This document shows positions 1 to 58,826 of a DNA stretch of 64,000 nucleotides, piece by piece. The number at the start of each line of letters is the position of its first letter. Position 1 is the stretch's first letter. The position numbers were made by a program, and so were the translations under genes. Origin of the DNA: Mesostigma viride (lineage: Eukaryota; Streptophyta; Mesostigmatophyceae; Mesostigmatales; Mesostigmataceae); NCBI GenBank assembly GCA_009746045.1, contig RPFO01000003.1, positions 750,767 through 814,766 on the forward strand, read 5' to 3'. The notes under the pieces were generated by a model that was given only the letters and a program-made list of their open reading frames with translations, was not told the origin of the DNA and did not search any database.

Positions 1-270
1 CAAGGCACTACCTGAGCCACGTTTTGTGGAGCTCTGACACAAGTTGTTGGGTATTTGAGTTACTGGCAATTCATGATGAGACATAAGGACATACTTGCTA
101 GGCTGTGACAGTGGCCCCTCACTTCAGCTCTTTCAGTGAACATTTGTTCTGGCTTGTTTTTTCTCCCTGCCTGTGTGCCCAGTAAGGCGGGTGTCAAAAG
201 TATCGACACACCTGCCCGGAACTAGTTACAGTTTAGTGAAGTTCTGGACTGCATGGATGGGCATGTGCCG

Positions 271-3208: not shown

Positions 3209-3310
3209 CGCGTCCTTGCCATCCGGGTCCATCCCATTTTCCTCCACTAGGTACTTGACCAGCTCCAGATGGCCTTTTGCAGCAGCGTAGTGAAGCACAT
3301 TGGCACCATG
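3209..3310 (-). CDS. Locus A exon 10: ninth ankyrin repeat
   Basis: 102 nt, phase 0. Acceptor CAACCCAG, donor GTACGT. Peptide begins HGANVLHYAAAKGHLELVKY and ends GMDPDGKDA. A good donor follows, so at least one more exon should exist at lower coordinates. I could not find it. Confidence 0.85.
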
Positions 3311-12300: not shown

Positions 12301-13552
12301 CCTCTGTGAAACCTCATGAGGCACGCACCAGCGTTCCTCGAGAAGTCTTGGGGCAGTCCTGCAGCCAGTCCTGCAGGCTGGGCTTCCTTGACCTGCGCGG
12401 TGGTGGTGGTTGTCGCACCCCAGCTCCGGCCGTCACCACCTGCCGCAGCACGGTGATGATCTCAGTGAACGTGGGCCGGCCAGTTGGCTGGTAGGAAAAG
12501 CAGCGATGCAGGAGGTCCACCACAGCGCTGGGCAAGCCCTCAGGAATTGCGGGACACATTTTCCGCGGAGCTGTGACGTTTGCCTTTATTTCATGGGTGC
12601 TCAGGCCAGCCCAGGGGGTGCACGCGGATGCCATATCCACCAGAATGCATCCAAACGCCCACGCATCGGCTGCCGTGGTCACACCCCCAAACTCATCAGG
12701 AACCCACTGCTCAGGCGCCATGTAGTTGGGCGTGCCTTGCACTGCAGTGGGCACGTCGGACGTGCTGCTGTTTCGGGGCGCGGAAATGCCAAAGTCGGCC
12801 ACGAATACCAGGCCAGCATACTTGTGCAGCAGGATGTTGGAAGGTTTCAGGTTCAGGACCATGATGCCTCTCTCATGCAGATCCGCGACCGCCATGGCTA
12901 TGTCCATGCTGATGCCCCTGATGCGGTCAAATGGCAGGCCTTTACCAGCAACGCCAGCACCAGAGCTTTCTACGGACTCTCGGTGCTGCTGCAGAGCCTT
13001 GTCCAAGGAGGTTCTGTAACGTGGCATGACCACGCACAGCTGGCCATTGATGCTGGCGACGCCAATGACGCGGCACACATTGTGGCACAAGAGTGATGCC
13101 TGGTGCCAGATCTTCATCTCTCTGCGAAACTTGGTGGTATCATCCTCCGTTAGCCCTCTGGCACGGTACACCTTGACCACAACCTCCTGCTCGCCTGGTT
13201 GCAGGGTTGCGGCTGAAACGGTCGCCATCGCCCCATCATGAAGGAGTTCGCCCAACGTCAACCGCTCCTGGGCTATCTGTGGGACCAGCACATCCGTCAA
13301 GCCTGGCGTTCCCAGGCGCAGCTGTTGGTCCTGCTGCTCCACCCATTGCTCAACAGCTGAACGCAGAGCGAAGACTGGAGCCAGCTTCGTGTCGACGACC
13401 CTCGCATTTGTTAGCGGGTCAGTCGTATTTCCGCGGGCGAACCACCGTTCGATAGCATCTCTTTCGTAGATTTGGCCTGTTTCCACTAGCATGACAGGAT
13501 CCCGCATCAGGTCGTACGAGATAGGGCACAGGAAATGCGCCGGGGGTTCCAT
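3209..13552 (-). CDS. Locus A: U-box / pseudokinase-like / ankyrin multi-exon gene (3' end not found)
   Basis: Reconstructed from ten phase-0 exons: 13552-12329 (U-box and kinase-like domain, 408 codons), then nine single-ankyrin exons at 11524-11426, 10688-10587, 9770-9669, 7785-7684, 7170-7069, 6162-6061, 4505-4404, 3721-3620 and 3310-3209. All internal junctions are AG/GT, and every ankyrin exon is 99 or 102 nt. The order and splice phase match loci B and C. The introns homologous to those between ankyrin repeats 8 and 9 are all short (309 bp here, 304 in B, 382 in C). The kinase catalytic loop has Asn234 where Asp is required, so phosphotransfer is probably lost. A membrane-anchor exon like those in B and C was not found. 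I am fairly sure of the exons. Their joining into one transcript is inferred from matching phases and from the parallel loci. Confidence 0.75.
3620..3721 (-). CDS. Locus A exon 9: single ankyrin repeat
   Basis: 102 nt, phase 0. Acceptor GTGGAACAG, donor GTGAGT. Peptide begins DGANVLLAAAAGGHLELVKY and ends GMSLDSKDK. Very similar to exon 9 of locus B (DGANVLLLAARVGH), which supports one-to-one exon correspondence between the loci. Confidence 0.87.
4404..4505 (-). CDS. Locus A exon 8: single ankyrin repeat
   Basis: 102 nt, phase 0. Acceptor TGAACCAG, donor GTATGC. Peptide begins EGRNALHHAAFRGHLGMVKY and ends GMSPDFKSQ. The preceding intron (4506-6060) holds a solo split-direct-repeat remnant of a PAT-like element. 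Confidence 0.85.
4583..5335. mobile_element. Solo split-direct-repeat relic of a PAT-like retrotransposon
   Basis: The stretch contains TTTCTTTATAG(T/C)GAGATG, the GGTTATAGGGTT region, GTCATTTGTTCAG, GTCAGCCTCTTTTC and the B-type end (GTATGCGCTCCACTCG to CACAGAA). These appear in the same order as the A2-B2 terminal structure of the full element at 39184-39777. No internal ORFs lie between A and B, so this is the equivalent of a solo LTR. About 200 bp near its left end is a CTCTCTCTCGCAGCG microsatellite expansion flanked by a second copy of the TTTCTTTATAG motif. It lies inside intron 4506-6060 of locus A. Confidence 0.7.
6061..6162 (-). CDS. Locus A exon 7: single ankyrin repeat
   Basis: 102 nt, phase 0. 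Acceptor GAAACAG, donor GTGAGT. Peptide begins TGTNAFHSAAAQGHVEIVKW and ends GMGLDSVSD. Confidence 0.85.
6572..6793. mobile_element. Internally deleted PAT-like terminal-repeat relic
   Basis: Begins AATCGTGGTTCTCTGAG like the A repeat of the full element, then jumps to GGCCTCTTTTCCCG and the complete B-type sequence (AAGTGTTCCCATGA to CGCTTAACAGAA). About 400 bp of the A repeat is missing. It sits in intron 6163-7068 of locus A and shows a second independent insertion of the same family. Confidence 0.65.
7069..7170 (-). CDS. Locus A exon 6: single ankyrin repeat
   Basis: 102 nt, phase 0. Acceptor GAAAACAG, donor GTGAGT. Peptide begins HGCHTLHAAAWGGHLELVKY and ends GMRLDGRLE. Confidence 0.85.
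7684..7785 (-). CDS. Locus A exon 5: single ankyrin repeat
   Basis: 102 nt, phase 0. Acceptor AACGCAG, donor GTGAAC. Peptide begins NGCNALYMAALKGHLELVKY and ends GMTLEDLAV. The preceding intron (7786-9668) carries the CCACAAA array. Confidence 0.85.
8199..8970. repeat. CCACAAA heptamer satellite array (about 110 units)
   Basis: 772 bp of near-perfect 7-bp repeats. CCAAAAA variants cluster at about 8341-8372, 8410-8426 and 8627-8690, and CCCACAA variants lie at about 8695-8760, which shows expansion by local duplication of variant blocks. It lies in intron 7786-9668 of locus A. Because 7 is not a multiple of 3, all frames stay open and long spurious ORFs appear on both strands. None is a gene. 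Confidence 0.95.
9669..9770 (-). CDS. Locus A exon 4: single ankyrin repeat
   Basis: 102 nt, phase 0. Acceptor AAACCAG, donor GTAACG. Peptide begins AGYNAVILAAEGGHLRLVKY. It carries the canonical ankyrin helix pattern (A at 9-10, GHL turn, LVKYLVED second helix). Confidence 0.85.
10587..10688 (-). CDS. Locus A exon 3: single ankyrin repeat
   Basis: 102 nt, phase 0. Acceptor ACGTAG, donor GTAAAT. Peptide begins SGRNALLLAANEGHLKLVKF and ends GMSLDARDW. It is the counterpart of exon 3 in B (NERNALLLAANKGH) and C. Confidence 0.85.
11426..11524 (-). CDS. Locus A exon 2: first ankyrin-like repeat (99 nt)
   Basis: Acceptor ATCACAG, donor GTACGT, phase 0, 33 codons. The peptide starts DVPQSFLQAAREGRLDAIRQ, an N-capping ankyrin helix pair. 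It is homologous to the 99-nt second exons of loci B (17178) and C (49230), whose peptides start DLPRSFLQAAEEGRMDAVRH. Distinct from the later 34-residue repeats. Confidence 0.85.
12329..13552 (-). CDS. Locus A exon 1: U-box plus kinase-like domain with catalytic Asp replaced by Asn
   Basis: The start is taken at 13552 (context GCCATGG, peptide MEPPAHFLCPISYDLM), because loci B and C begin at the same methionine. An upstream in-frame Met at 13567 is less likely. Residues about 4-75 form a U-box (CPISYDLMRDPVML, TGQIYERDAIERWF), the E2-binding fold of plant-type U-box ubiquitin ligases. Residues about 105-365 form a kinase fold: a degenerate glycine loop (DGAMATV), VVVK lysine, VADFG, APEQW, and WAFGCIL of helix F. 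In the catalytic loop the sequence is VLNLKPSN, with Asn234 at the position of the essential Asp. The C-terminus ends in a short tail with SLQDWLQDCPKTSRGTL. The exon ends at a GTGCGT donor (12328-12323), which matches the donor position in B and C. If that donor were skipped, translation would stop a few codons later at 12314. Confidence 0.85.
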
Positions 13553-14903: not shown

Positions 14904-16415
14904 ATGGAACCGCCGGCGCAGTTCCTGTGCCCTATCTCGTGCGACCTGATGCGCGATCCTGTCATGCTCGTGGAAACAGGCCAGACCTACGAAAGGGCTG
15001 CTATTGAGCAGTGGTTTGCTCGTGGAAACAATACTGACCCGCTGACCAACAAGAGGGTGGCCGACAAGAAAGTGGTCCCGTTGTCAGCCCTGCGTTCGCT
15101 GGTTGAGGAATGGGTGGAGCAGCAACAAGAACGGCAGCGTCTGGGAATCGCAGGCTCGAATGTCCAGGTGCCACAAATAGCCCAAGATCAATTGACATTA
15201 AGCGAGGTACTTCATGACGGGGCGATGGCGACTGTTTCAGCGGCCATCCTGCAACCAGGTGGGCAGCAGGTTGTGGTCAAGGTGTTCCGTGCCAGAGGGC
15301 TAACTGAGGAGGACTCCGCCAAATTTCGCAGAGAGGTCCAGATCTTGCACCATGCATCACTCTTCTGCCACAACGTGTGTCGCCTCATAGGGGTGGCCAG
15401 CATCAGCAGCCAGCTGTGCATGGTCATGCCCCGTTACAAAACCTCCTTGGACGCGGCTCTGCGACAGCTTCAGAGGTCTGAGCAAAGCTCCAACACTGGC
15501 CCTGCTAGTAAAGGCATGCCATTTGACCGCACCCTGGCCATCAGCCTGGATATCGCCCTGGCGGTCGCGGATCTGCACGAGCGAGGCATCATGGTCCTGG
15601 ACTTGAAGCCTGCCAACGTCTTGCTGGACAAGTATGGGCGGGCGGTCGTGGCAGACTTTGGAAGTTCAGCCCTTCGCAACCACACGCTTTCACTCTACAT
15701 GCCCACTTCAGCGCAAGGCACACCCAACTACATGGCGCCTGAGCAGTGGGTCCCTGATGAGTTTGGGGGGGTGACCACGGCAGCAGATGCGTGGGCGTTT
15801 GGATGCATTCTGGTGGAGATGGCATCCGGAGCCCCACCCTGGGCTGGTTTGAGCATGTTTCAAATGATGGCAAACGTCACAGCTCCGCGAAAAATGTGTC
15901 CTGCGATTCCTGAGGGCTTGCCCAGCGCTTTAGCGGAACTCCTGCATCGCTGCTTTTCCTACCAGCCAGCCAACCGGCCCGCATTTGCTGAGATCATCAC
16001 TGTGCTGCGGCAGCCGTGGATGACTGGGTTGCAACCAGCACCGCCACTACCCAAGGCAGCAAAGACCAGCCTGGAGCGGTCGATGCAGGCCTGCCCAAAG
16101 ACGGCGACAGAAGTGGTGGCGACGGCTGGGGTGAAAGCAGCACTGCCACCGGCCAAGGCACCAAAGACCAGCCTGGAGGGGTCGGTTGAGGCCTCCCCAA
16201 AGACTGCTTCAGTGGTGGTGGCCACATCTGCAGTGCGACCAGCACCGCCACCGCCCAAGGCACCTGAGACCAGCCTGGAAGGGTCGGTGCAGGCCTGCCC
16301 GAAACCTGTGGCAGCGGCGGCTGTGGTACAGTCAGCAAAGCAACTGCAAAAGGCAAAGCAACCCAACCTGCAGAGCTGGCTGCGTACTTGCCCAAAGACC
16401 GCAAAGGGAAAACTG
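14904..16415 (+). CDS. Locus B exon 1: U-box and protein kinase domain
   Basis: 504 codons. The ATG at 14904 has context TGCCATGG and the same MEPPAQFLCPIS start as locus C. The in-frame Met at 14877 is probably 5' leader, because locus C is out of frame there. U-box about residues 4-75 (CPISCDLMRDPVML, TYERAAIEQWF). Kinase about 105-365: degenerate glycine loop DGAMATV, Lys126 in VVVKVF, Asp233 in VLDLKPAN, Asp251 in VADFG, then APEQW. The residue before the catalytic Asp is Leu, not Arg, so this is a non-RD type loop. After the kinase comes a low-complexity tail with three 34-residue repeats (16053-16358), then NLQSWLRTCPKTAKGKL. The exon ends CTG at 16415 before donor GTGCGT. Read-through would stop at 16463. 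Confidence 0.87.
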
Positions 16416-31400: not shown

Positions 31401-32345
31401 CTGATCAAGGTTTTAGTTGGGCCTTGGCTGCGTACCTTATGTCCGTTTGGGGTAGAGCCCTCTCCATGTGTAGTTCAGCAAAAAGGGGGCAGGGATAAAG
31501 GCCCATTGGCCTAGCCATGTGAGTTCCGTGGGTATTTGTGATCTCCTTGCAGTGATATTCTCTGTCAGGAAGGCGCGCCGCTCATTCCTTTAGAACTATT
31601 AGAGTTGCTTCATGCTTGGAAATGCATGTTCCTGTGGCCATAACTTACCGGTACAACTTGTGCCAAAAGTTGTAGTGTTGGAGAATCTCCTGTTTCCTGA
31701 TCCATCCTGCTGAGGATCTTTGTGATGCATATGGATATTGAGCTGGGCAACCCAAAATTGGGTATGTGCATGTGCTGGGCCCTTCCTGATGCTGCTTCCC
31801 GTGTGTTACGGTAGCATGTAACGGTAGCATGTCACGGTAGCATGTTTCGGTAGCATGTTACAGTAGCATGTTACGGTAGCATGTCACGGTAGCATGTCAC
31901 GGTAGCATATTGCAGTAGCATGTTACGGTAGCATAGTACGATAACATGGCACACCGTGTGACATGGATTCATTCAGATTCCATTCCCTATCTGCATCCAA
32001 AACTCGTGCAGATCCTCACAATTTTTCCGTTCTTGCTCCCTCCGGACACTACTAGCAGTTTCTTCTCTGTATTTTCGAGGCTTTTCCCGCATAACTTTGC
32101 AATATTGTTCTCAGCTAAGCAAATGCTGTCCTTCTCATGTCAAACAGGGAGTGCGGTGGAGACTGCTGGGCTTCATGCTCGCCATGGCCAAAGTATTCGC
32201 CCCCGCGAGAAGGACGCGTTCGCCTGCCGCGTCTGCACGCCGGGCACGCACACCTGCCCGCGACCAATACGTGCAAGCGTTGCTGTGGGGTCTCCTTGTG
32301 CCGGCCATCGTCATCATGCTGGTTATGATGAATGAGTTCGCATAA
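14904..32345 (+). CDS. Locus B: U-box / non-RD kinase / nine ankyrin exons / C-terminal membrane anchor
   Basis: Eleven phase-0 exons: 14904-16415, 17178-17276, 17595-17696, 23884-23985, 25103-25204, 26069-26170, 27645-27746, 29077-29178, 30306-30407, 30712-30813 and 32148-32345. The predicted protein is about 874 residues: U-box, kinase domain, proline/alanine-rich tail with three 34-residue repeats, nine ankyrin repeats, basic linker, one C-terminal transmembrane helix. U-box domains recruit E2 enzymes, so a membrane-anchored E3 ligase with a kinase module and an ankyrin binding surface is the natural reading. A tail-anchored topology would leave the U-box, kinase and ankyrins in the cytosol. 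Intron 17697-23883 is 6.2 kb because of inserted repeats. The intron after 26170 starts with GC. I know of no named family with this domain order. Exons are well supported, and full-length splicing is inferred. Confidence 0.8.
16053..16358 (+). repeat. Three 102-bp tandem repeats coding the tail of the locus B kinase exon
   Basis: Units begin at 16053, 16155 and 16257, each starting AAGGCA(G/C)C and encoding K-A-P-(K/E)-T-S-L-E followed by ACPKT-like and alanine/valine-rich sequence. The 102-bp period keeps the frame. Loci A and C have only one related segment (SLQDWL...CPKT), so B has expanded this linker. Probably disordered spacer between kinase and ankyrin domain. Confidence 0.85.
17178..17276 (+). 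CDS. Locus B exon 2: first ankyrin-like repeat (99 nt)
   Basis: Acceptor AATGACAG, donor GTACAT, phase 0, 33 codons beginning DLPRSFLQAAEEGRMDAVRH. Almost identical to locus C exon 49230-49328. Confidence 0.87.
17595..17696 (+). CDS. Locus B exon 3: single ankyrin repeat
   Basis: 102 nt, phase 0. Acceptor AATCGCAG, donor GTAAAT. Peptide begins NERNALLLAANKGHPEVVKF and ends RMSLGASDK. The following intron is the 6.2-kb repeat-filled one. Confidence 0.87.
17802..18003 (+). repeat. Interstitial telomere-like block: about 80-bp tandem units carrying TTTAGGG runs
   Basis: Three copies of a unit containing TTTGCCTGGCAGGACTACGC. The first two end in (TTTAGGG)4 at 17854-17881 and (TTTAGGG)3 at 17934-17954. 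The third lacks the run. TTTAGGG is the plant-type telomere repeat, also found in many green algae and stramenopiles. This is intronic, not a chromosome end. Confidence 0.9.
18086..18406 (+). repeat. 20-bp minisatellite, about 16 units
   Basis: Unit AGCATCGATAACACCACTAC with alternation of ACC/AAC and CTAC/CTGC at two positions, in the large intron of locus B. The variants are interspersed in a non-random order, as expected for unequal exchange. Each unit contains ATCGAT. Confidence 0.95.
19147..23600. repeat. Large inverted repeat (arms about 1.35 kb, loop 26 bp)
   Basis: The right arm, 22252-23600 (1349 bp), is the reverse complement of the left arm, 19147-22225, once a 1.72-kb insertion and its 4-bp target duplication are removed from the left arm (1355 bp remaining). 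The arms end in GAGTTGAACCGG and CCGGTTCAACTC. The centre is GC-rich (CCGCCGCCGCC...GGCCGGCC) around a T-rich loop, 22226-22251. Arm translations differ by only a few residues over about 150, so the duplication is recent or is being homogenised. ORFs in the arms look like nothing I know. A foldback-type element, or a locus yielding long hairpin RNA, are the two readings. It lies in sense-strand intron 17697-23883 of locus B. Confidence 0.93.
19276..20995. mobile_element. TTAA-flanked DNA transposon, piggyBac-like, non-autonomous
   Basis: TTAA at 19272-19275 and 20996-20999 flank a 1720-bp unit with perfect 14-bp terminal inverted repeats CACGTCGTTTGTAA. The undisturbed sister arm of the large inverted repeat has a single TTAA at the same point, which confirms target duplication. 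Just inside both ends are palindromes ACTCAGTCCTAAAAATAGGACTGAGT (written with the loop A5T; 26 bp at 19291-19316 and related copies at 20930-20976). A duplicated TTAA target is the hallmark of the piggyBac superfamily. No transposase is recognisable, and the longest ORF (130 codons, minus, 20009-20401) has no features I know. Confidence 0.85.
23884..23985 (+). CDS. Locus B exon 4: single ankyrin repeat
   Basis: 102 nt, phase 0. Acceptor CAACCAG, donor GTGACT. Peptide begins DGYNALHSAAKGGCLEVVKY and ends GMSLDGTAK. An (ATT)n run at 23798-23820 lies just upstream in the intron. Confidence 0.87.
25103..25204 (+). CDS. Locus B exon 5: single ankyrin repeat
   Basis: 102 nt, phase 0. Acceptor CGGAGCAG, donor GTAAGT. 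Peptide begins DGDLALHVAAMFGNLDVVQY and ends GMSINTRRQ. Resembles locus C exon 51740 (HLDVVQYLVED). Confidence 0.87.
26069..26170 (+). CDS. Locus B exon 6: single ankyrin repeat with GC donor
   Basis: 102 nt, phase 0. Acceptor CAAATAG. The donor is GCGAGT instead of GTGAGT. Peptide begins GGQNALHFAATGGHLEVVKY and ends GMSLNGKYE. GC-AG introns are a known minor class and often spliced less efficiently, so this exon is a candidate for alternative use. Confidence 0.85.
27645..27746 (+). CDS. Locus B exon 7: single ankyrin repeat
   Basis: 102 nt, phase 0. Acceptor GAAACAG, donor GTGAGG. Peptide begins HGRLSLFLAAWYGRLGVVKY and ends GISLDSTIF. It departs from consensus at several positions (RLSLFL for NALHxA). 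A direct duplication of TGAGTAGTAA(G/A)CTTTTCTAT lies at 27489-27508 and about 27582-27601 just upstream. Confidence 0.83.
29077..29178 (+). CDS. Locus B exon 8: single ankyrin repeat
   Basis: 102 nt, phase 0. Acceptor TGGAACAG, donor GTACTT. Peptide begins DGRTALDCAAVRGHLELVKY and ends RMSLDAKSK. Its flanks resemble those of locus C exon 56032. Confidence 0.87.
30306..30407 (+). CDS. Locus B exon 9: single ankyrin repeat
   Basis: 102 nt, phase 0. Acceptor CCAACAG, donor GTGAGT. Peptide begins DGANVLLLAARVGHLELVKY and ends GMSLSSKDN. Counterpart of locus A exon 3620-3721. Confidence 0.88.
30712..30813 (+). CDS. Locus B exon 10: ninth ankyrin repeat
   Basis: 102 nt, phase 0. Acceptor GACTCAG, donor GTAAGT. 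Peptide begins HGCDALVKACLNGHMEVVAY and ends GMNFQVAKGM. It is the most divergent repeat of the locus (VAYLISQG instead of VKYLVEDRG), as expected for a capping repeat. Confidence 0.85.
31803..31945 (+). repeat. 13-bp minisatellite (CGGTAGCATGTNA), about 11 units
   Basis: Eleven degenerate units of the form GTNACGGTAGCAT in the last intron of locus B, about 200 bp before the membrane-anchor exon. Three positions vary between units. Confidence 0.9.
32148..32345 (+). CDS. Locus B exon 11: C-terminal membrane-anchor exon
   Basis: Acceptor TCAAACAG, phase 0, 65 codons plus stop. The peptide has a basic, alanine/arginine-rich stretch (RRTRSPAASARRARTPAR) and then a hydrophobic segment (ALLWGLLVPAIVIMLVMM) ending NEFA. 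It is homologous to locus C exon 58620-58826 (shared RTPAR, LW, and a hydrophobic IVIM/LVIM core). The sequence after the stop codon is also shared (GAGTGAGT, CTGTC(G/-)TCCCAGTC, TGATTA, CTGGCC(A/G)TTCAATA). This predicts a tail-anchored protein with the ankyrins on the cytosolic side. It is the only hydrophobic segment in the predicted protein. Confidence 0.8.
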   Translation, partial: GVRWRLLGFMLAMAKVFAPARRTRSPAASARRARTPARDQYVQALLWGLLVPAIVIMLVMMNEFA

Positions 32346-34135: not shown

Positions 34136-34278
34136 CCTTCAACTGCCCATATCTCAACAGCTGAGCGCAGAGCAAAAAGTGGAACCAGCTCTGTCTCAAC
34201 AACCCTCGCATATACATTAGCGGGTCAGTATCATTTCGGCAAGAAAAAAGAAAGAAAAAAAGAAGAAAAAAAAGAGAA

Positions 34279-34710: not shown

Positions 34711-34797
34711 ACGAGGGCGGCGACAGCAAGCCAGGGGAAACGAACCTCTGGTTTGACGAACCTGTACTGTCGGAGCCATTTTTGGCCCTGAGCAGCA

Positions 34798-38974: not shown

Positions 38975-39046
38975 TTTGGTTGTTCATTTCTCTGTCATTA
39001 TGCTAGGTTCTTTGCCCCTGGCATGGATCGCCAGGGAGGGATATAA

Positions 39047-39777: not shown

Positions 39778-40015
39778 AAGTCATCCATTTCGTAGTTTTG
39801 GGCCTGTTTGCAGGAGCATGACAGGAAAAAGCATCAGGTATGCGCGGGATGACGGGGCACTGGAAATTGCGCGCGGGATCCAGGGCACTCGTATCCACAC
39901 AACCAAGGCTTTATTGGCCGGTCCAGGTAGGGCACTGTGTCACCTGAGCGGATTAATTAATTAGCACATATAACAGCGTTATGTGAGTAGAAGTCCTCAG
40001 TACGTACGGTCGAGT

Positions 40016-41545: not shown

Positions 41546-42000
41546 GGACTAATTAATTATAATAAGCACGTGACTGTGTCACGTGCATGGATGCCAATAC
41601 AGATCAAGGGAACCTTCAACCCTGTACACAACGAGGAGGGAGGGCGCCTTCGGCTCTCACTGCCGCAAGTGGGCAGGCCACAGAGCGCTCTCTCCACAGC
41701 ATGGTGCCGGGGCGCATGGGATGAATTAATAAAATCATGAATTAATAGACACGTGACTGCGTCACGTGATGGGATGAATTTAATTAATAGACATGTGACT
41801 GCGTCGCGTGAGCATAAGTCGATCGATCCTCAGTGGGAGGGGAACATGGGATGGAATGGATGGCGGTAAGCTATCTAGGTCCTAGTTACAGGGTTGTGGG
41901 CACCGCGGCCCGAATCGCTATGAATGCCATACGCGGTCACACGCGGAGCCCCGGCCCACAAACTTGGGGGTGGTCTCCTTCATCACCACTACTTGCCATA
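41546..42000 (-). mobile_element. LINE 3'-end relic (minus) with CACGTG palindromes
   Basis: From about 41840 to 42000 the sequence is the reverse of the LINE C-terminal/3' region seen at 61330-61460 (shared CTATCTAGGTCCTAGTTACAG, GGGTTGTGGGCACC, GCTATGAATGCCATAC, GTGGTCTCCTTCAT). It encodes, on the minus strand, the GIHS and MKETTPK-like tail. It stops abruptly at the palindrome at 42001. Upstream, three copies of a 20-bp imperfect palindrome of the form CACGTGACTGCGTCACGTG lie at about 41568, 41750 and 41790. Confidence 0.65.
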
Positions 42001-42206
42001 AGTTAGGTTAATATTGTGCGGAAACCTTTTGCCACTTGGGCTTCTCAGGTTCCGCACAATATTACCAGCGATAACCACTCGCTGGTACACTCAAGTTCAC
42101 GCCGGCGTGAACTTGAGTGTACCAGCGAGTGGTTATCGCTGGTAATATTGTGCGGAACCTGAGAAGCCCAAGTGGCAAAAGGTTTCCGCACAATATTAAC
42201 CTAACT
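42001..42206. repeat. Perfect 206-bp palindrome with nested hairpins
   Basis: Positions 42001-42103 are the exact reverse complement of 42104-42206, with no spacer, centred on GCC|GGC. Each arm also contains two smaller inverted repeats: AATATTGTGCGGAAACC against GGTTCCGCACAATATT with a loop of about 20 nt, and ACCAGCGA against TCGCTGGT with a 7-nt loop. A single strand could fold as a long hairpin or as a branched, multi-hairpin form. It interrupts a LINE relic on its left. No coding content. Confidence 0.97.
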
Positions 42207-43233: not shown

Positions 43234-44625
43234 CTAGTTGCCCCGATACATTTCCAGTTGACCCGCAGTTAGTTTACTGAGCCCCAATGCATCCATCATC
43301 TCTGGCGAGTGCCTTGCTTCTTCCAGGATTGTGGTTGTCGAACCCATCCCAAGGGAAAACCCCCGAAAGCTGCTCTTGAGCACGTCAGCTCCTGCCCGCA
43401 CTAGGCACTTCACAATCTCCACGTTCCCGCTTTGAACCGCGGTGAAGAGAGCTGGCTCTGACGTCGCATAATAGGGACCGATCTTCTCGCCCCTGCGGAT
43501 GGAATCAGAGCGTGCACCCGCCTGCAGTAGCTGCTGGACTAGGGCGACATTGCTTGCTCGGATAGCCACATGAAGGGCTGTCTCCGTAAATTTGCTGTGC
43601 TTGCAGTCTTTCACAGTGATGTTGGAGCGGTAGGCATCGCCACTTACGCCTGCCCGTAAAAGGACATCCACCACTGGCATTGATGCTTTCTCCACTGCCG
43701 CATAGAGACAAGGACCCAACTTGGTCACGTCTGCCCCCTTCTCGAGCATCAACTTCACCAGCACCTCATTTTCCACAATCGCCTCCATCGCAGCGGTACC
43801 GCTGCCCTCAGCACTGATGACCGCACCCGCCTTTAGCAGCAGGGCTGCCACGTTCCACCGACGGGATTTTAGGGAGACCAGCAGGGGTGTCTCGGGGATT
43901 CGGGTGATACGAACCGCATCAACTTTCACGCCACGCATACGCAAAAGAGATCTCACCATGTCCAGGTCAGTGGCAACATGAAGCGCAGTGTCGCCTGTGG
44001 CGCGCCCATGACGAGCACTCTCATTCACGTCCGCGCCTGCTGCCAGCAATACTTCCACGATCCCAGAGAAGCCCTCGACAACAGCAACGTACAGCGCAGG
44101 CCAAGACCAGTTACCGTCCTCGTGCGACTCGTACTCACGCACATTCACCTGAGCTCCTGCCTCGACCAGGCATTTCACCACATCAAGATGTCCATTAATA
44201 ACGGCGAGGATGAGTGGCGTGTGGTCACTGCGGTCCGAGGCGTCTATGTCTATCCCAAACTCGATGAGATGTTTGACGACATCTAGCCGCCCTATCTGAG
44301 CTGCCATGTGCAGTGGTGTTGACTTTGAATTTGTACATCGATACGTTTCCAGCCACTTCTCCACTGCGCTCTTCTCTTTCTTGGCGGCCACTTGCGCCTT
44401 GGCCTTCACCAGCTCCAGCTCCAGCTTTGTCCGTGCAAGTTCCTCGTTCACCAGCTTCTGCTTCACCGCCGCCAGCTCGTCCCTCATAGCCTTGAGCTCC
44501 TTTTCATGCCATGCCATGCCTTCCAGCCGCAGTGCCTGCAGCTGTTGCTGACATGACGCATGCAGCTGCTGTTGAATGGCCTGGGACCCCTGGCTGGTGC
44601 TCTGGCTCCGGAGGCCCAGCCAATC
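43234..44625 (-). CDS. Locus D exon 2: coiled coil and ankyrin repeats
   Basis: Begins at the acceptor with DWLGLRSQSTSQGSQ; the first Met is 36 codons in, so an independent gene starting there is the alternative reading. A Gln-rich, then Glu/Lys-rich coiled coil spans about residues 18-95 (MRDELAAVKQKL, LELELVKAKAQ). About eight to ten ankyrin repeats follow (TPLHMAAQIGRLDVVKHLIE, TPLILAVINGHLDVVKCLVE, TALHVAIRASNVALVQQLLQ). They are of variable length with inserted loops, unlike the uniform 34-residue repeats of A-C. C-terminus ends LEMYRGN. Confidence 0.87.
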   Translation of the reverse strand, partial: DWLGLRSQSTSQGSQAIQQQLHASCQQQLQALRLEGMAWHEKELKAMRDELAAVKQKLVNEELARTKLELELVKAKAQVAAKKEKSAVEKWLETYRCTNSKSTPLHMAAQIGRLDVVKHLIEFGIDIDASDRSDHTPLILAVINGHLDVVKCLVEAGAQVNVREYESHEDGNWSWPALYVAVVEGFSGIVEVLLAAGADVNESARHGRATGDTALHVATDLDMVRSLLRMRGVKVDAVRITRIPETPLLVSLKSRRWNVAALLLKAGAVISAEGSGTAAMEAIVENEVLVKLMLEKGADVTKLGPCLYAAVEKASMPVVDVLLRAGVSGDAYRSNITVKDCKHSKFTETALHVAIRASNVALVQQLLQAGARSDSIRRGEKIGPYYATSEPALFTAVQSGNVEIVKCLVRAGADVLKSSFRGFSLGMGSTTTILEEARHSPEMMDALGLSKLTAGQLEMYRGN

Positions 44626-46973
44626 CTGGTTGTCTCAATCAAGGCACAATTGTTTACACGGTGACAATTGTATGCAATGCATATACTTAGGAATCTATGT
44701 GAAGTCGCTCAAAGGCAATACGAACCTAGTACACGTTTTCAGAACATGGTTTACCAAAACGTTTCTTCTAGCTTGTGGTAGATATACTGTGCGGGGCATC
44801 TCATTCCATCCGATAGCCCCGGGCGTTATTTCCGTGATCTACAATTGCAACAAGCACATTTTACAACAACAGACCCCATAACTACCCTTTCCTTTTTTCC
44901 CTCAGCACCTGGCAGTAGAAACATCTACCTGTTTCACAGTCCCGGCCCTTGAGCAATGAGAAAAATCCCACACAAAGCAGACCTGGCCCTTTCCCCCTCC
45001 AAGGTACAAGAACAAGATCCAACTAAGCTCATCCCCACATAGTTAACTAATTAATTCACAGCACATGTCAAGCAATAGTGTAAATACGCACTTCGTGAAC
45101 AAGCCCTTCCTCATTGTGCCATGAATAAGCATACAACACTTCAGATATCTATCCCAATAGGCACGCGTACAAAATCGCTCTTTCACATAACAATGCATGG
45201 GTGGAATAGATAGTGCATGGTTGATAAATACATAATCAATATCCCAAGCATGATCAAAGCTGGTCTCTCTAGACAAAAGTACTATAGGAAAGACCCCTGG
45301 CATTTAACCAAGGAAAAATTGTGTACAATTTACCTGCATATAGGCATTGGTACTAAGGCTGTCACTGATGGCTATAGATGTGGAAATAAACATACGCAAT
45401 GTACATTACATGACAAGGTTGACACCCACAGCATGTAAACTGGTGCCCTTTTCTCCCTATCTTTAGGTACTCAGGCAATTAAGTATCAAACACCATAAGG
45501 AGCAATTTACAGGCTGCAATCTAACGATCGAGCTGTATTGTTGCCACCAGGGGGTTGAACCGATCGGCAGACCCTGCGGACTCTCCACCCCACTCAACGG
45601 CATCTCTTCCAACCCACCCACCATGCACTTTGGTGATGGCAAAAGCTTTCCACCATTAGCACCAACAACCAATACCAACGCATGATCATACAGCTTACCA
45701 ACACGTGCGAGGGCCGTTCTCCCCACGACTGCAGCATGTCCGCCTGGGATGGGGCTGCCGCCGCCGGCGCCGCGCCACCTGGCTGTCGCTGGCTCTGCTG
45801 GCCCCATGCCTCCCGCAGCACCACCAGCATCTCGTCAAACGTGGGCCGGTCCGCCGGGTCGAATGAAAAGCACCGCCGCACCATGTCCTGCAGCCCCTCC
45901 GGCAGAACATCTGGCACAGGGGGCGTCTGCCGCCGGACGAGCACGTTGGTAACCACCTGGCGCATCTGCAGACCCTCCCAGGGGTCCTGCCCTGTCGCCA
46001 TGGCCATTAGCAGGCAGCCGAACGCCCACGCGTCAGCCTGCGTTGTCACACCAGACGCGGTCTCGTCGGGGTCATGCTGCTCCGGAGCCATGTAGTTGAC
46101 CGAGCCCGCAATGCTGGTTGCCTTGCGCGCCGACAGCGTGTGCTCAACCGCGTGGGAGATGCCAAAGTCTGCGACGACCGCGCGGCCGTAGGCGTCTATT
46201 AATACATTACCCGGCTTAAGGTCCTGCACAATGATGTGCTGGCGGTGCAGGTCGGCCATTGCGAGGCACACATCCTGCGCTAGCAGCAGGAGGCGGGGGT
46301 AGGGGATGCACGTGTTGGGTGACTGATCTTTACGACTGACAACCGGCACGCCCTGCTTGGCGAAGTTTTCCCGCTCTGCCTTGATGGCGTCGTCCAGGGA
46401 CTGCTCGTACTTGAACATGACGATGCAGAGGTGGTTCTCGAGTTTTGTCACGCCCAGGAAGCGGCACACATTGTGGCAGAAGTTAGACCCCCGCTGCAGC
46501 ACCTTGACCTCGCGCCGGAACGCTACCGACGCATCCTGCGATAAGACCGGCAAGGGCAGCATTTTCACGGCCACGGTCTCCTTCTCGGATGGGTGAAGGA
46601 TGGCGGCACGCACAACGCCCATGCCTCCCCTGCCAATTTCCCTTCCAAGGGTGAGACGGGCCGGCGGGATGAAGACCACGCTGTCGTCCTCGAGGACGCC
46701 GAGCATGGCGCGCGTCGCTTCCTGTTCCTCCTCGTCGCGCTGCTGCTGCTTGCGCTGCTCCACCCAGTCCTCCACGAGCCGGCGAAGCAGGCGCACGGGC
46801 ACGAGGCGGGTGCTGGCCAACGGCCGCCTTGTCCAGGGGTCCGTCGCGTTTCCCCGGTCGAACCAGCCCTGTATGGCACTCCTCTCAAAGATTTCGCCTG
46901 TCTCGACAAGCATGACAGGATCGGTCATGAGGTCGAGGGAGAGAGGACACACGAAGTCTCTGCTCAGATCCAT
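43234..46973 (-). CDS. Locus D: U-box / non-RD kinase / coiled coil / ankyrin protein, two exons
   Basis: Exon 1 46973-45699 (425 codons) and exon 2 44625-43234 (463 codons plus stop) join in phase 0 across a 1073-bp intron (donor GTAAGC, acceptor ACAACCAG), giving about 888 residues. Exon 1 ends LQSWGERPSHVL, at the same place relative to the SW motif as the donor in loci A, B and C, so the intron position is conserved across the family. Unlike A, B and C, the ankyrin part is one continuous exon with diverged repeats and a coiled coil in front. No transmembrane segment is present, so D is predicted to be soluble. It lies head to head with locus C. The joining is inferred but strongly supported by phase, splice consensus and family parallels. 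Confidence 0.83.
44626..45698 (-). other. Intron of locus D
   Basis: 1073 bp, donor GTAAGC, acceptor ending ACAACCAG. I see no exon or repeat of note inside it. Confidence 0.7.
45699..46973 (-). CDS. Locus D exon 1: U-box and protein kinase
   Basis: Starts MDLSRDFVCPLSLDLM. U-box about residues 4-75 (CPLSLDLMTDPVML, IFERSAIQGWF). Kinase about 107-380: a good glycine loop GRGGMGVV, Lys137 in VAVKML, Glu in FRREVKVL, Asp251 in IVQDLKPGNVLI, VADFG, APEQH, WAFGCLL. All catalytic residues are present, so activity is plausible. The residue before the catalytic Asp is Gln (non-RD). Compared with A and B, the glycine loop is canonical and the sequence between U-box and kinase contains a Gln/Glu-rich helix (EQRKQQQRDEEEQEA). 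Without splicing the frame would continue only to 45594. Confidence 0.88.
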
Positions 46974-47918: not shown

Positions 47919-48281
47919 ATGGAACCGCCGGCGCAGTTCCTGTGCCCCATCTCGTGCGACCTGATGCGCGATCCTGTCATGCTCGTGGAAACAGGCCAAA
48001 CCTACGAAAGGGCTGCTATCGAGCAGTGGTTGGCTCGTGGAAATAATACTGACCCGCTGACCAACAAGAGGATTTCCAGCAAAAAGTTGGTCCCGGTGTT
48101 AGCCCTGCGTTCGCTGGTTGAGGAATGGCTGGAGCAGCAACAAGAACGGCAGCGTCTGGGACCCAAAACTGTGGCGGCGACGGCAACTGTGGTACGGCCA
48201 GCAAAGCATCCGAAAAAGCCAAAACAGATCAGCCTGCAGGACTGGCTGCGTACCTGCCCAAAGACTTCAAACGGAAAGCTG
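47919..48281 (+). CDS. Locus C exon 1: U-box without kinase
   Basis: 121 codons, ATG in context TGCCATGG. U-box about residues 4-75, over 90 percent identical by eye to locus B (CPISCDLMRDPVML). After RQRLG the sequence passes directly to PKTVAATATVVRPAKHPKK and SLQDWLRTCPKTSNGKL, which corresponds to the tail of exon 1 in B. The kinase has been removed between these points without a frameshift. Ends before donor GTATGT. Read-through would end at 48338. Confidence 0.85.
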
Positions 48282-51200
48282 GTATGTTCCTGCATGAAAC
48301 CAAAGGACTGCATGCCATGGAGGCATTACAGTGCCTGATGTTATGTCTCTAGTGTAGAGTCATTGTAGTTTCATTGCACAAAATTGCATGCTTTTGCAAA
48401 TTGATGAGTTTTGTTAGGTGCACAAATAATGCTCGCTCTGGGCTCAACTCTAGTCGGTTCAATGTTTCCTACATTGTTCGTGTCCATGTCTGTTTGAGAC
48501 TTCTGATTGTTTGTAATGGACCCCGTCTCAGGCCTCTGCATGGGTTGCAGGTACCGATAAGGCAAGGGTAGAGATAAATGTGCTTCTCGCCATTAACGGT
48601 ACACGTTTATCCATAGACTTAAGCACTCATATGCAGCGCACTTAGATTTGAACCTTCCGCCCGCACACTCATGCTCTAAACCATACACTCCATGCAAGCA
48701 GAAAGTAATAGATAGCAGAAAGTAATAAATCGCTTTCATGTATTTTTGCCACCGTAATCTCAAACCCCTGCCTTCAATAGCCCTATTTATTATCATATTC
48801 CTTGGTTTTGTGCGCATTTCTCATTTTGCATGCTCGTTGTCCCTGGTCTACGGTGCCAAGTAATTTGTGATGGACAGCGTCTGCCTTCTTACACATTCTT
48901 GCAGCTGTACAAGTTTCTCTTTGTTTGTAAGCAGCAACTATCTTTACTATGGCATGCTTTGGTGCACTGTGTGAAAATCTTTCTCTTGGTTTTCTTCCCT
49001 GGCCCCGCGCAATCGATGGAAATCACCCCCGTACCACCCTCTAGACACTTGTATGTGACAAGAGTTTGACTGCTGCGTGCTTTTATGGTGGGGCCACTGG
49101 TAATGACAGGACCTCCCGCGATTATTCCGACAAGCGCCTATTTGCGCACATTGACACCATCAGCACAGGTTGCCCTCAACCAGCTTTGACATACATTTAT
49201 GACTCTTGGGGGGGCACTGGTAATGACAGGACCTCCCGCGATCGTTCCTACAAGCCGCCGAGGAGGGTCGAATGGACGCGGTCCGGCATTTTGTGAACCA
49301 AGGGGTCAAGTTGAGCGTCACGGACGAGGTACATGCTGCTTACGCAAAAATTCTAGTCATTGGTCATGGCTTGGTCTTGGACCCGAAGTACGTACCTTTC
49401 TGTGTTTCGTGAGCCTGATGTCACCGTACCATTTGCAGTGCTGTCTACTGGCAGTGGCACACAAGCAGGGACAACGTGGCCGGGGGGATAAGCGGCTCTT
49501 GCGTATACCAACTGGCCAGTATTGAACGATCACCTGTGCTACGATCTGTTCAATATCAGCAACATGCTTGACCGAGAGATAAGCGGTTGTTGAGTCGGTC
49601 AACTGGCGACTCTTGATGTTGAAGGGGTTGGAAAGACAGCGATTCTAAAAGCAAAGTCAGATGTGGCTTTTGAAGTTTTTACATTATGAATGCCTTTTGA
49701 AGCTCATAAACACAACTCCGGCGCCAGTGTCAAAGAGGGTTTTGCTGATGGCATGCTGACTTCTATAACCTCTTGTTGGTGCCTTGTTTCCTGGAAGGTC
49801 AAGGGGTCAGCAAAGTTGAATTACTGTGAGTGCTATTCGCTGCGGTCTGCACATATCTTTGATGCAAACCACAGGATGGGTACAATGCGCCCTTGCTTGC
49901 CGCCAGTGAGGGCCATCTGGAGGCGGTGAAGTTTCTGGTGGAGGAAAAGAGGATGAACCCGGACACCAGGGCAAGGGTAAATAAATTTCCCCCAAGTGTT
50001 AGCTGCATTCATAACTCTGTGCCTGCTTTGGGGTTATCTACACCATGGAGGTATTAGTGGCTCTTTCATGCACGTAAAATGCCCCGTTTTTGCTGGGTAG
50101 AGCCGATAGACCTGTCCTGCCTGGCCCGCTCTGGCAGACACGTAAACCACTGTTTGTTTGATAGGGCAGTAAGGGCACATTCACGACTTGAGAGACACAA
50201 CCCATTTTTTTCTTGCTGTTCCTCACTGGCCCAGTGGCAGTTCCAGAATTCCTGTGACTAGGGGAAGACCTTGCATTGCCCAAAATATACAACATGATCG
50301 GAAACTGCCCCTAAGGTTTTCCTTGGTGATTAAAATTAATAATGATCAATTAGTTGTGCTACGAGTAACGAGTAACACAGCCACGGATATCCAGCATGGT
50401 CGCAAACTGACCCTAAGGGTTCCCTTGATTAGCTAATGGATGACTTGATTAATTAGTTGTGCTACGAGTAACACAGACATGTCGCGGCGCTGCTTGTGCG
50501 ACGCAATCCCGTGTGTGTGTGCATGTCAGTCGACTGGGAGCAATGCGCTTCATCTCGCGGCTCTCGGAGGCCACCTGCGAGTGGTCAGTTACCTCGTGGA
50601 GGAGAGGAGGATGAACCTGGAGACCACGAACAAGGTGGGTTGTCCTGCCCGTGAAAGAAGCCGCAGTCCCTTGGCATCCCTCCCTTTCAGAAGCACGAAC
50701 GTGGGGATGCCACGTTGCCTGTTAAGGCATCTCATCTTGGCCTGGCAGAGGTGAAAGGAAACATCCATCCTCAAATGGCAGTACTATTTGTAATAAACTA
50801 CTTCCAGCATAGTTTCCCTGGAGGCACTCCATTTACTATGTCGTACACAAATGTAGTGTCTGGCTGGGAACTGCTGACCCGTGGTGGGATGCATACATGA
50901 CGTGAAAAGAAATCATATCACCTTGCTCTTGCACTGGTGACTTTCTGGCCTTGGCTGCACTGCCACTTCACTTCCGTTCTAAGCTCCGTAGCAGTATTGT
51001 TGGACTTGTACCATGTAGCATCGCCTGCTGCAGTCAACCTAGCTGAGCGCGACAGTAACAGTAGCTAACCCGGGCACCCAGGTGGCCCAGGTGGCCCAGG
51101 TGGCCCAGGTGGCCCAGGTGGCCCAGGGAATGGCCCAGGCTATCCTGCTATTGTATATTCTTTTCTAGTGATAATCGTTGAGCTTTGCTCACTTTATTGC

Positions 51201-57200: not shown

Positions 57201-58826
57201 TGGTTATATTTTGTTGTTGCATCTTCTTGGTGCCTTTATAAATAATGTGATATTGTTTGTGATAATGTGGTAATATGTGTCACTGGTGAACGGTTTTCCA
57301 TTCTCTTGTGCAACAGGCAGGGGCCAATCCGCTTCATATTGCTGCTTCCGGAGGCCACTTGGAGGTGGTCAAGTACTTGGTGGAGGACATGGGGATGAGC
57401 CTGGCGAGTAAGGACAGGGTGAGTGGTTCGGGGCCTTTTGAGAAGCGGGGCTGATGGCTTACTACTTTGTTGCTGGGTTCAAGGGGTCTGGGCTTACTAT
57501 TTTGACCATTACAAACACAATTATCTTCATGTCTTAAAAGAATTGTAGTATAATTTATATAATAGTTTTTATCAACCCCCCTGTCTATCGCTTGGAGTGG
57601 ACACACATGACATGTCTTCTCATCTGGCTAGAAGGGTTGCGTGTGCGGCCATGATAGTTGTTGTGGTGACGTATTCCACAGTTTGCCTGTTTCTTCTTTT
57701 TCCTGAAACCAGGTTTTTCTTCTTTTTAATTGTGTTCATGCGTGTAATTGACGCTTGGGTCCTGCTTGTCTCTTTCCGAAATTCCTCCTGCACGCCTCAG
57801 AATGGATGGACCGTGCTTCGATACGCTAATGCAAACCACCACCTGGCGGTGGTCGAGTACCTGGTGGAGGACCAGGGGATGCGCCTGGACTTCAGGGACC
57901 TGGTAATGGCCCAACTCAACATGTGTGTCATGGCTACCGTAACCGGCGGCCAATGAACACACCTAATAAACTCTGCTGGCCTACGGCTACGCTAGGACGT
58001 AACACACGGTTGTGCGCGTACTTCCTGCCCATTCTTGTTTGTGCTGGACATGACGTAATCTGCCACGTTCAAGGCAAGCTATCTACTTTCCAAGGATACT
58101 TTTAGGTTCCGATGACTGACAAGAGCGCTATGCGTTGGGCTTCCTTGTTGAGACACCGGCCAGCATCTACTGGGGTGGTGTGGGCATAAGTGCGCTGTTA
58201 TTGTAAAGGCACCATTCATTCTTCACCGAGCTACTTCCATGTACTTGGAAGGCATGGTCCTGTAGCCACTTGTGATTGGTACAAACCGGTGCCAAAACCT
58301 GATTGATTTGCAGCATGTTTCTGTTCCCTGGTCCATCTTGTTGAGGATCAGTATTAACCCAAGAGTAATAAGCTGGGCGGTCCAACAAGGTGGATGCACA
58401 TGTGCTGGGCCCTTTTCAATGCTGCTTTCGCTTGTATTTGGATTCAGGTTGGCTCCACTCACTAGCTGCATCCGGGATCCATGCACATCCTCTTCATAAC
58501 TGCCTTCCATTCCGTTTTCCAATGTATCACTTCTTTTGCTGTCGGTTCCTGCCTTTTCTGCATGCCTATGTAACTAGCGATCTCAGCTCAATCCATGCTT
58601 CCCCTCGTGCCACGAGCAGGGACTTCCGCCGGATTTGCTGAACTGCATGGTTGCCATCGAAAAGACAATCGGCATGGCGGGAGGGAGAGGTTCAGCTGCC
58701 CGCCTGGCCAGGACACCCGCCCGCAGCCAACCAGCACGATCGATGCTGTGGGACATGCTGAGTCTGGCGCTCTTCATCGCGCTGGTCCTCGTCATCATGT
58801 ACTCTGCGAACATGTTTTTTGTCTGA
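47919..58826 (+). CDS. Locus C: U-box / nine ankyrin exons / membrane anchor, kinase domain missing
   Basis: Eleven phase-0 exons: 47919-48281, 49230-49328, 49875-49976, 50530-50634, 51740-51844, 52564-52665, 54435-54536, 56032-56133, 57317-57418, 57801-57902 and 58620-58826. The predicted protein is about 497 residues: U-box, short linker, nine ankyrin repeats, basic linker, C-terminal transmembrane segment. It has the same plan as locus B except that about 1.15 kb coding for the kinase is absent, in frame, from exon 1. Promoter, first exons, several introns and the 3' flank are shared with B, so C is a duplicate that lost the kinase or B is the one that gained it. As a membrane-anchored U-box-ankyrin protein it could still act as an E3 ligase. 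Full-length splicing is inferred. Confidence 0.8.
49110..49138 (+). pseudogene. Truncated duplicate of the first ankyrin exon
   Basis: CACTGGTAATGACAG followed by GACCTCCCGCGATTATTCCGACAAGC repeats the acceptor and the first 29 nt of exon 49230-49328, then diverges. It shows that this exon has been tandemly duplicated and the extra copy lost. Not present in locus B. Confidence 0.7.
49230..49328 (+). CDS. Locus C exon 2: first ankyrin-like repeat (99 nt)
   Basis: Acceptor AATGACAG, donor GTACAT, phase 0. Peptide DLPRSFLQAAEEGRMDAVRH and onward, ending SVTDE; differs from B by one residue near the end (T for K). Confidence 0.87.
49875..49976 (+). CDS. Locus C exon 3: single ankyrin repeat
   Basis: 102 nt, phase 0. 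Acceptor AACCACAG, donor GTAAAT. Peptide begins DGYNAPLLAASEGHLEAVKF and ends RMNPDTRAR. Pro for the usual Leu at position 6. Confidence 0.86.
50530..50634 (+). CDS. Locus C exon 4: single ankyrin repeat (105 nt)
   Basis: Acceptor ATGTCAG, donor GTGGGT, phase 0, 35 codons. Peptide begins STGSNALHLAALGGHLRVVS and ends RMNLETTNK. One residue longer at the N-terminus than other repeats, as if the acceptor moved by one codon. Confidence 0.83.
51078..51128 (+). repeat. 10-bp minisatellite CAGGTGGCCC, five units
   Basis: Expansion of the CCCAGGTGGC motif found once in homologous introns at 24388 and 53398 (GGGCAC(C/T)CAGGTGGCACC). In an intron of locus C. Confidence 0.9.
51177..51466 (+). repeat. 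Dispersed repeat, third copy
   Basis: Diverged copy of the 1689-2236 element: TTGAGCTTTGCTCACTTTAT, GGGCTCAAAGGGGACCGACC, TAACGTAC(C)TCACTAGACC, TAGGGGATGTAGGG and a terminal GGACCAAAA...GTAT. It lacks the middle section. It sits in an intron of locus C. Confidence 0.75.
51740..51844 (+). CDS. Locus C exon 5: single ankyrin repeat (105 nt)
   Basis: Acceptor GCGTCACAG, donor GTGAGT at 51845 (an alternative GTGGTG donor three bases earlier would give 102 nt). Phase 0. Peptide begins LGENALHCAAMAGHLDVVQY and ends GMSVDVKQPV. Confidence 0.84.
52564..52665 (+). CDS. Locus C exon 6: single ankyrin repeat
   Basis: 102 nt, phase 0. Acceptor CAAACAG, donor GTGAGT. Peptide begins GGCNALHRAALEGHLEVVKY and ends RMSPETKDD. 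Counterpart of locus B exon 26069-26170, with which it shares the acceptor-side intron (GGTTCTGGCCATGG versus GGTGCTGGTCATGG). Confidence 0.87.
54029..54290. repeat. (ATATT)n pentamer microsatellite
   Basis: About 50 units of TATAT/TATTA pentamers with one interruption (TATAGTAGTAT near 54115) and degenerate copies at the right edge. In intron 52666-54434 of locus C. Confidence 0.95.
54435..54536 (+). CDS. Locus C exon 7: single ankyrin repeat
   Basis: 102 nt, phase 0. Acceptor GAAACAG, donor GTGAGT. Peptide begins NGGNLLHCAGWHGNLELVKY and ends RMKLNGIAS. Counterpart of locus B exon 27645 by its flanks (GGGCTTGCA(C/T)CCT before, CTTGCCCATGAGG after). Confidence 0.86.
54910..55086 (+). repeat. 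35-bp minisatellite, about five units
   Basis: Unit CCCTGTCTGGATTSGTCCCT plus TCRTTATATCAAGTCG. Four full units and partial ones on both sides, in intron 54537-56031 of locus C. Confidence 0.93.
56032..56133 (+). CDS. Locus C exon 8: single ankyrin repeat
   Basis: 102 nt, phase 0. Acceptor GGAACAG, donor GTAATG. Peptide begins DGRNVLHYAAWRGHLELVKY and ends RMSLDALTK. Counterpart of locus B exon 29077. Confidence 0.88.
57317..57418 (+). CDS. Locus C exon 9: single ankyrin repeat
   Basis: 102 nt, phase 0. Acceptor GCAACAG, donor GTGAGT. Peptide begins AGANPLHIAASGGHLEVVKY and ends GMSLASKDR. Confidence 0.87.
57801..57902 (+). CDS. Locus C exon 10: ninth ankyrin repeat
   Basis: 102 nt, phase 0. 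Acceptor GCCTCAG, donor GTAATG. Peptide begins NGWTVLRYANANHHLAVVEY and ends GMRLDFRDL. Divergent first helix, as in the ninth repeat of locus B. Confidence 0.86.
58620..58826 (+). CDS. Locus C exon 11: C-terminal membrane-anchor exon
   Basis: Acceptor ACGAGCAG, phase 0, 68 codons plus stop. Peptide: GLPPDLLNCMVAIEK, basic linker with RLARTPARSQPAR, then a hydrophobic helix (LSLALFIALVLVIMYSANMF) ending FV. Homologous to locus B exon 32148-32345 in linker, hydrophobic core and following 3' flank. No Met is needed at the start because it is an internal splice acceptor. Confidence 0.82.
   Translation, partial: GLPPDLLNCMVAIEKTIGMAGGRGSAARLARTPARSQPARSMLWDMLSLALFIALVLVIMYSANMFFV

Follow-up and report, generated by a model that had tools for sequence, protein, structure and literature searches.

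We analysed a 64-kb window of DNA from Mesostigma viride (contig RPFO01000003.1, positions 750,767 to 814,766, numbered from 1 below; GC 51.6%) and found in it a cluster of four related genes, termed A, B, C and D, all of which encode a U-box and three of which (A, B and D) also encode a kinase-like domain, both domains having been identified by Pfam. The window looks eukaryotic, with long introns, retroelement-like open reading frames (ORFs) and large simple repeats; an RNA-family search and a tRNA search of it returned nothing. Ankyrin repeats were detected with a hidden Markov model (HMM) that was seeded with four peptides from the window, iterated and run on the window's six-frame ORFs. 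It matched repeats 2-9 of A, B and C in 24 of 24 cases at E<=5.9e-12, as well as three repeats of one further ORF at E below 0.01, and gave no match at E<1e-3 in 10 shuffled windows (2-base blocks). The first repeats of B and C scored just 0.026 and that of A was unlisted; all three were located by similar sequence together with splice context.

A, B and C each comprise a U-box exon and nine ankyrin exons, with one repeat per exon. The ankyrin exons 1-9 of A lie on the reverse strand between 3209 and 11524 (11426-11524, 10587-10688, 9669-9770, 7687-7785, 7069-7170, 6061-6162, 4404-4505, 3620-3721 and 3209-3310). Those of B (17178-17276, 17595-17696, 23884-23985, 25103-25204, 26069-26170, 27645-27746, 29077-29178, 30306-30407 and 30712-30813) and of C (49230-49328, 49875-49976, 50530-50634, 51740-51844, 52564-52665, 54435-54536, 56032-56133, 57317-57418 and 57801-57902) lie on the forward strand, spanning 17178 to 30813 and 49230 to 57902, respectively. 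All 27 exons are in phase 0 and follow an AG acceptor, and 26 end at a GT donor, the donor of B5 being GC. Four are 99 nucleotides (nt) long (A1, A4, B1 and C1), 21 are 102 nt and two are 105 nt (C3 and C4). In all three genes the shortest intron is the one that separates repeats 8 and 9 (309, 304 and 382 nt in A, B and C), and the first intron of B measures 762 nt. When four single exons were submitted to Pfam, B5, C7 and A5 scored as ankyrin and the divergent first exon B1 matched nothing; the joined arrays gave Ank_2 for A (E=2.1e-59), Ank_2 for B (E=4.4e-71) and Ank_4 for C (E=2.3e-69) as the best ankyrin families. A first-pass annotation of this DNA had described this layout, i.e., a U-box exon and nine phase-0 exons of 99, 102 or 105 nt at three loci, a short repeat 8-9 intron common to them and a transmembrane last exon in B and C, and had regarded the genes as a modular family uniting one-repeat-per-exon ankyrins with an E3 domain, a kinase and a membrane anchor. 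All of these points were borne out.

The first exon of A (12329..13552, reverse strand; ORF 12317-13552) encodes a U-box and a kinase-like domain (Pfam U-box 5.9e-17, Pkinase 8.8e-35) and ends at the donor GTGCGT. That of B (14904..16415, forward) encodes a U-box, a kinase and a long linker, and that of C (47919..48281, forward) a U-box and a linker, with no kinase detected by Pfam. In all three, exon 1 closes with a similar motif, (Q)(D/S)WL..CPKT...L, followed by a phase-0 GT donor; the exon-1 donor of D is likewise GT. The linker that follows the kinase of B is formed by a 102-nt tandem repeat of 2.7 copies (16024-16300), and predicting the structure of B exon 1 with an alignment of four rows gave no usable model (mean predicted local distance difference test score, pLDDT, 36).

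The core residues of the U-box are invariant in all four genes, and the U-box of A matches the PDB structure 'U-box domain-containing protein 12'. The kinases, in turn, form a graded series. D keeps the glycine loop (GRGGMG), the beta-3 Lys (VAVK), the alpha-C Glu, the catalytic Asp and the DFG motif, and B keeps the last four of these, with its loop glycines replaced by HDGAMA. In A the catalytic Asp has become Asn (IMVLNLKPSN), and the usual His-Arg ahead of the Asp position is missing in A, B and D alike. The best PDB match of the A kinase, 3p86, also has Asn at the catalytic position of the alignment; we take this entry to be an engineered dead mutant of CTR1. C has no counterpart to 1152 nt of B (15147-16298), a multiple of three, and its kinase was evidently lost by in-frame deletion. 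The kinase thus appears to be eroding within the cluster, with Asn in A, a deletion in C and a canonical domain in D.

Gene D (43234-46973, reverse strand) is additional to the three loci reported at first. Its exon 1 (45699..46973; ORF 45597-46973) encodes a U-box and the canonical kinase (Pfam U-box 8.7e-15, Pkinase 1.3e-39), and its exon 2 (43234..44625, with the stop at 43234) encodes a long helix and then nine ankyrin helix pairs within a single exon (Pfam Ank 3.8e-42). One phase-0 intron separates the two, from a GT donor to an AG acceptor; the donor lies at a protein position comparable to that in A-C, and the exon that follows it is again an ankyrin exon. A single-sequence AlphaFold2 model of exon 2 (mean pLDDT 69, six segments below 50) contains the nine helix pairs, in one of which the first helix is four residues long, followed by several short helices, and Foldseek matched it to ankyrins, designed ankyrins and the MIB1 ankyrin domain. 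Since only one intron parts the U-box from the ankyrins in D, this gene provides the best sequence argument that the two are also joined in one mRNA in A-C. When exon 1 of D is read through its donor (45597-45698), it gains a 34-residue extension with a stretch that is hydrophobic by eye, and a retained intron might give D a membrane-segment end too.

B and C end in a coding exon for a basic linker and a hydrophobic tail (B, 32148..32345, forward, stop TAA; C, 58620..58826, forward, stop TGA). These exons have in-phase acceptors and similar ends, and showed no Pfam match above the cut-off. Each contains a 19-residue hydrophobic segment (Kyte-Doolittle hydropathy, KD, 2.41 in B and 2.48 in C) followed by only 5 (B) or 8 (C) residues, with 10 (B) and 6 (C) Lys and Arg on its N-terminal side and none on its C-terminal side, as expected of a tail anchor. 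No other 19-residue window with KD>=1.6 was found in A-C, so that the only strongly hydrophobic segment of B and of C lies in the last 30 or so residues, the arrangement that defines tail anchors. The segment is therefore a predicted C-terminal tail anchor that would insert into a membrane, in which case the ankyrins should face the cytosol. We considered and rejected a cell-surface receptor for B and C, as their sole strong hydrophobic segment is C-terminal and none would place the repeats outside; a surface-receptor version of the initial reading is accordingly unsupported. The sequence GTGAGT abuts the stop of C (58827-58832) and lies 15 nt past that of B (32361-32366), a possible intron of the 3' untranslated region. 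Downstream of A9, one stretch is by eye present twice (1500-2250, near 1600 and 2200); this is perhaps an element interrupting the 3' end of A.

All 27 ankyrin exons and all exon-1 frames are open, and none of 500 neutral simulations at each of 0.15, 0.25 and 0.35 substitutions per site kept all 27 exons open. The ratio of nonsynonymous to synonymous substitutions (dN/dS, omega) over ankyrin exons 2-9 was 0.43 for A-B, 0.64 for A-C and 0.52 for B-C, with a bootstrap interval of 0.40-0.66 across these exons; for exon 1 it was 0.37 (A-B) and 0.41 (A-C). Variation within the repeats is unevenly spread. Residues 1, 3, 11, 12, 24 and 33 of the exon, which we take to be the positions randomised in designed ankyrin proteins, i.e., the canonical ligand contacts, had a mean entropy of 2.81 bits against 1.21 elsewhere (permutation p 1.1e-4), and their pooled omega was 1.09 (bootstrap 0.76-1.54, which spans neutrality) as compared with 0.43 (0.30-0.58) at the others. 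At positions 3, 8, 11 and 12, picked post hoc from the data, dN was 0.94 and dS 0.69. This pattern is consistent with a variable groove carried by a constant scaffold; it does not prove positive selection, because many ankyrins tolerate free variation at exposed positions.

Among known plans, that of KEG (KEEP ON GOING) of Arabidopsis comes closest; the excerpts of its description give it as a RING and a kinase followed by nine ankyrins and then twelve HERC2-like repeats (PMC4844421). In excerpts of a second study, a KEG fragment that includes the ankyrins pulls down substrate and a fragment without them does not (PMC11020294), and the accessible accounts also state that inactivating the kinase of plant KEG makes the protein more stable and less ubiquitinated. 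As far as these accounts go, KEG and the cluster share the order of an N-terminal E3 domain, then a kinase, then nine ankyrins, a comparison of plan and not of sequence. The kinase follows the E3 domain in three of the four genes (A, B and D, not C), and the nine ankyrins occur as exons in A-C and as helix pairs in the D model, C having them without a kinase. The domain order of the cluster is thus not unprecedented, contrary to the first-pass view that no named family has it. Nevertheless, the cluster lacks two defining features of KEG: where KEG has a RING, exon 1 of A-D has a U-box (PF04564) and no RING family at E<=0.001 in Pfam, and where KEG has HERC2-like repeats, B and C have a tail anchor and D stops soon after its ankyrins.

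Taken together, these features suggest that the family probably consists of intracellular, membrane-tethered E3 ubiquitin ligases, whose ankyrin groove would recruit cytosolic substrates. The N-terminal U-box would bind an E2, and the nine ankyrins would form a curved groove selecting cytosolic substrates or ligands. The tail anchor of B and C would hold the enzyme on a membrane, with its other domains (U-box, kinase and ankyrins) on the cytosolic side. The kinase-like domain may tune the ligase, as in plant KEG, with A (Asp to Asn) and C (kinase deleted) as putative forms released from kinase control. Membrane insertion, E3 activity, the role of substrates and regulation by the kinase are all predictions at this point, and an immune role of the family is possible.

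Such a role would be central if the genes were instead immune receptors that diversify by exon shuffling, an ankyrin counterpart of the LRR-ROCO and TPR genes of brown algae in which exchanged exons create new pathogen recognition surfaces. The packaging of one repeat per symmetrical exon and the concentration of variation at contact positions, with omega near 1, speak for this idea, and so does one clear exchange: a tract around the first ankyrin exon of C (49143-49505) is 93% identical to B (17089-17454), and a truncated relic that retains just the start of an ankyrin-1 exon (49088..49135, forward) lies about 120 nt upstream, beside the intact C1 exon, by all appearances a single replacement or conversion tract between B and C. 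The history of the other exons points elsewhere. When exons were compared with 35 and 25 nt of flank, 39 of the 54 best cross-gene matches fell at the same position (about 6 expected by chance) and 15 off-position; with exons alone, 28 fell at the same position and 26 off it. The distinct first exon adds six to each same-position count, leaving 33/48 with flanks and 22/48 with exons alone. Identity over exons 2-9 was 0.689 at the same position, 0.640 at different positions and 0.641 within genes. Same-position exons being more alike than others, the repeats would have diverged first and whole genes been duplicated later, a process that appears to have kept the number of repeats and most of their order; about 490 nt of DNA upstream of the genes and parts of their introns are likewise common to B and C. 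A profile from exons 2-9, which sees the first exon weakly and does not list the ankyrin-1 relic, detected no remnants of repeats 2-9 in introns. General exon shuffling was therefore rejected on the constant nine repeats per gene, the positional similarity and the lack of such relics. Given also that the repeats should face the cytosol and that the omega interval at contact positions spans neutrality, we consider shuffling receptors unlikely. What the first-pass annotation had proposed along these lines survives in part: of its shuffling, the one first-exon replacement; of its variable recognition surface, the excess variation at contact positions, though not a departure from neutrality; and of its kinase output, the apparently competent kinases of B and D, though not those of A, with Asn for Asp, and C, which has none.

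Two further readings concern whether the exons form functional genes at all. The U-box(-kinase) exons could be single-exon genes with separate ankyrin genes adjoining downstream: the exon-1 frames reach a stop 4 (A), 15 (B), 18 (C) and 34 (D) codons past the donor, which makes a single-exon reading possible, and B1 and C1 contain an in-frame Met within the repeat. However, all four loci show the arrangement in the same orientation, and in 4/4 genes exon 1 has a phase-0 GT donor and the next exon an in-phase AG acceptor. In addition, A1 lacks any Met, and translation from the Met of B1 or C1 would split the repeat in the middle, so we find separate gene sets rather unlikely. Alternatively, the cluster may be decaying: its members would be copies of a formerly active gene that have lost some or all of their function, with D as the intact one. 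The damaged kinase of A and the missing one of C would fit, as would the transposon-like ORFs and large repeats throughout, the missing transmembrane exon of A (see below) and the lineage changes, which number 23 in the A kinase against 12 in that of B and 3 against 4 in their U-boxes (raw counts). Yet decay would hardly leave every ankyrin exon and exon-1 frame open, which none of the three sets of simulations reproduced, nor an omega interval that stays below 1, and we regard it as distinctly improbable.

The reading of the family as membrane-tethered ligases is itself weakened by several observations. The splicing of U-box, ankyrin and tail exons into one mRNA is predicted from the sequence. 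The purifying selection on the exons is moderate, given that their 40-nt flanks are nearly as similar as the ankyrin exons themselves (0.65-0.73 against 0.70-0.73 identical in global alignment, with 0.51 for random sequence), and the U-box exon shows weak constraint between B and C (omega 0.65). Conservation of the transmembrane exon between B and C is weak (37% identity, omega 0.79). For A, a scan of positions 1-3205 for open stretches of at least 30 codons with a hydrophobic tail found no transmembrane exon, so A may extend beyond the window or be disrupted, and D has no tail anchor, ending soon after its ankyrins with one borderline hydrophobic stretch within them. Finally, the DNA around the exon-1 donor of D is 0.45-0.62 identical to that of A-C, no better than random (0.51), so that the intron position shared by D and A-C is a matter of protein alignment, and a descent of the D and A-C repeats from the same nine, position by position, was unsupported (p=0.11).

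The genes are also arranged in divergent pairs: A and B start 1351 nt apart (13552/14904), and D and C 945 nt apart (46973/47919). Each of these two pairs, the only ones, combines one apparently competent kinase (B or D) with a gene that has none (A or C). One could imagine paired membrane-borne intracellular sensors, co-expressed from the shared intergenic region, in which the kinase-less partner would act as a stable bait or sensor with a diversified groove, the kinase-bearing partner as switch and the ankyrin exons as replaceable cassettes. Such pairs would be a ubiquitin-ligase analogue of the paired NLR receptors of plants, but we hold this arrangement to be quite unlikely.

Several other systems resemble the membrane-tethered ligase family in part. 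Plant U-box (PUB) kinases have a U-box and a kinase in one protein, as does the cluster, but with the U-box after the kinase and, to our knowledge, without ankyrins. Animal ankyrins (ANK1-3) encode a 33-residue repeat per 99-nt exon and have 24 repeats; the PDB sequences that match the C array best include ankyrin-1 and -2, but these proteins have no E3 or kinase domain. The NB-ARC-TPR genes of brown algae are of the same one-repeat-per-exon kind as their LRR-ROCO genes. The latter, according to excerpts of their description, have 72-nt phase-2 LRR exons with one repeat each, strong shuffling, alternative splicing and a proposed part in immune recognition (PMC11378527). The cluster shares with these receptors the single repeat per symmetrical exon (27/27 in phase 0) and differs in that their LRR exons are in phase 2 and shuffled, whereas its ankyrin exons are in phase 0, nine per gene and mostly kept in order. 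Tetrahymena LRR genes, again from excerpts, have arrays of 1 to about 50 phase-2 exons of 90 bp, some fused to other domains including kinase (PMC6564038); they resemble the cluster in their uniform one-phase repeat exons and differ in repeat type, phase and variable exon number. Searches of the open-access literature found no paper in which U-box and ankyrin phrases adjoin and none that combines a U-box with KEG, ankyrin and algae, and among the related papers listed none describes this architecture as judged by title and opening of the abstract; this is weak evidence of novelty, as subscription papers mostly lie outside that literature. Among viral contigs, pattern searches matched 12, 124 and 0 stretches in three runs with no relative confirmed, and among prokaryote genome contigs 200 stretches fitted a pattern, none of them confirmed as a relative. 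Of the phage records, 22 had a match, at <=32% identity, and in the 20 listed the match was limited to the kinase part.

The window contains a number of repeats and mobile elements besides the genes. Intron 2 of B holds a perfect inverted repeat (21025-23452) with 1201-nt arms, 100% complementary and 26 nt apart, which is either a foldback element of recent origin or an artefact of assembly; another inverted pair (19147-19275 and 23472-23600) flanks it, and the same intron contains four TTTAGGG units (17854-17881), presumably the plant-type telomere repeat, which may point to the lineage of the host. Between the two gene pairs, at 34792-38974, lies a 1099-aa ORF (35675-38974) that encodes a tyrosine-recombinase domain (Phage_integrase 6.7e-7) and is overlapped by a 350-aa ORF running from 34792; together they look, we presume, like a DIRS-type retroelement. 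A LINE-like reverse transcriptase fragment (RVT_1 1.7e-16) is found at 60159-60911, a perfect palindrome with 103-nt arms and zero spacer at 42001-42206, and long satellites at 40015-41547 ((TGGGA)n, about 307 copies) and 8188-8970 ((CACAAAC)n, about 112 copies).

If expressed, the family would represent a KEG-like plan in which the E3 domain is of another type and a membrane anchor takes the place of the HERC2 repeats, and would as such bear on whether the layout of E3 domain, kinase and nine ankyrins arose more than once. Its kinases, intact, degenerate, changed from Asp to Asn or deleted, offer a natural series with which to probe the role of the kinase in the ligase, and its exons make the ankyrin a further type of repeat packaged one repeat per exon.

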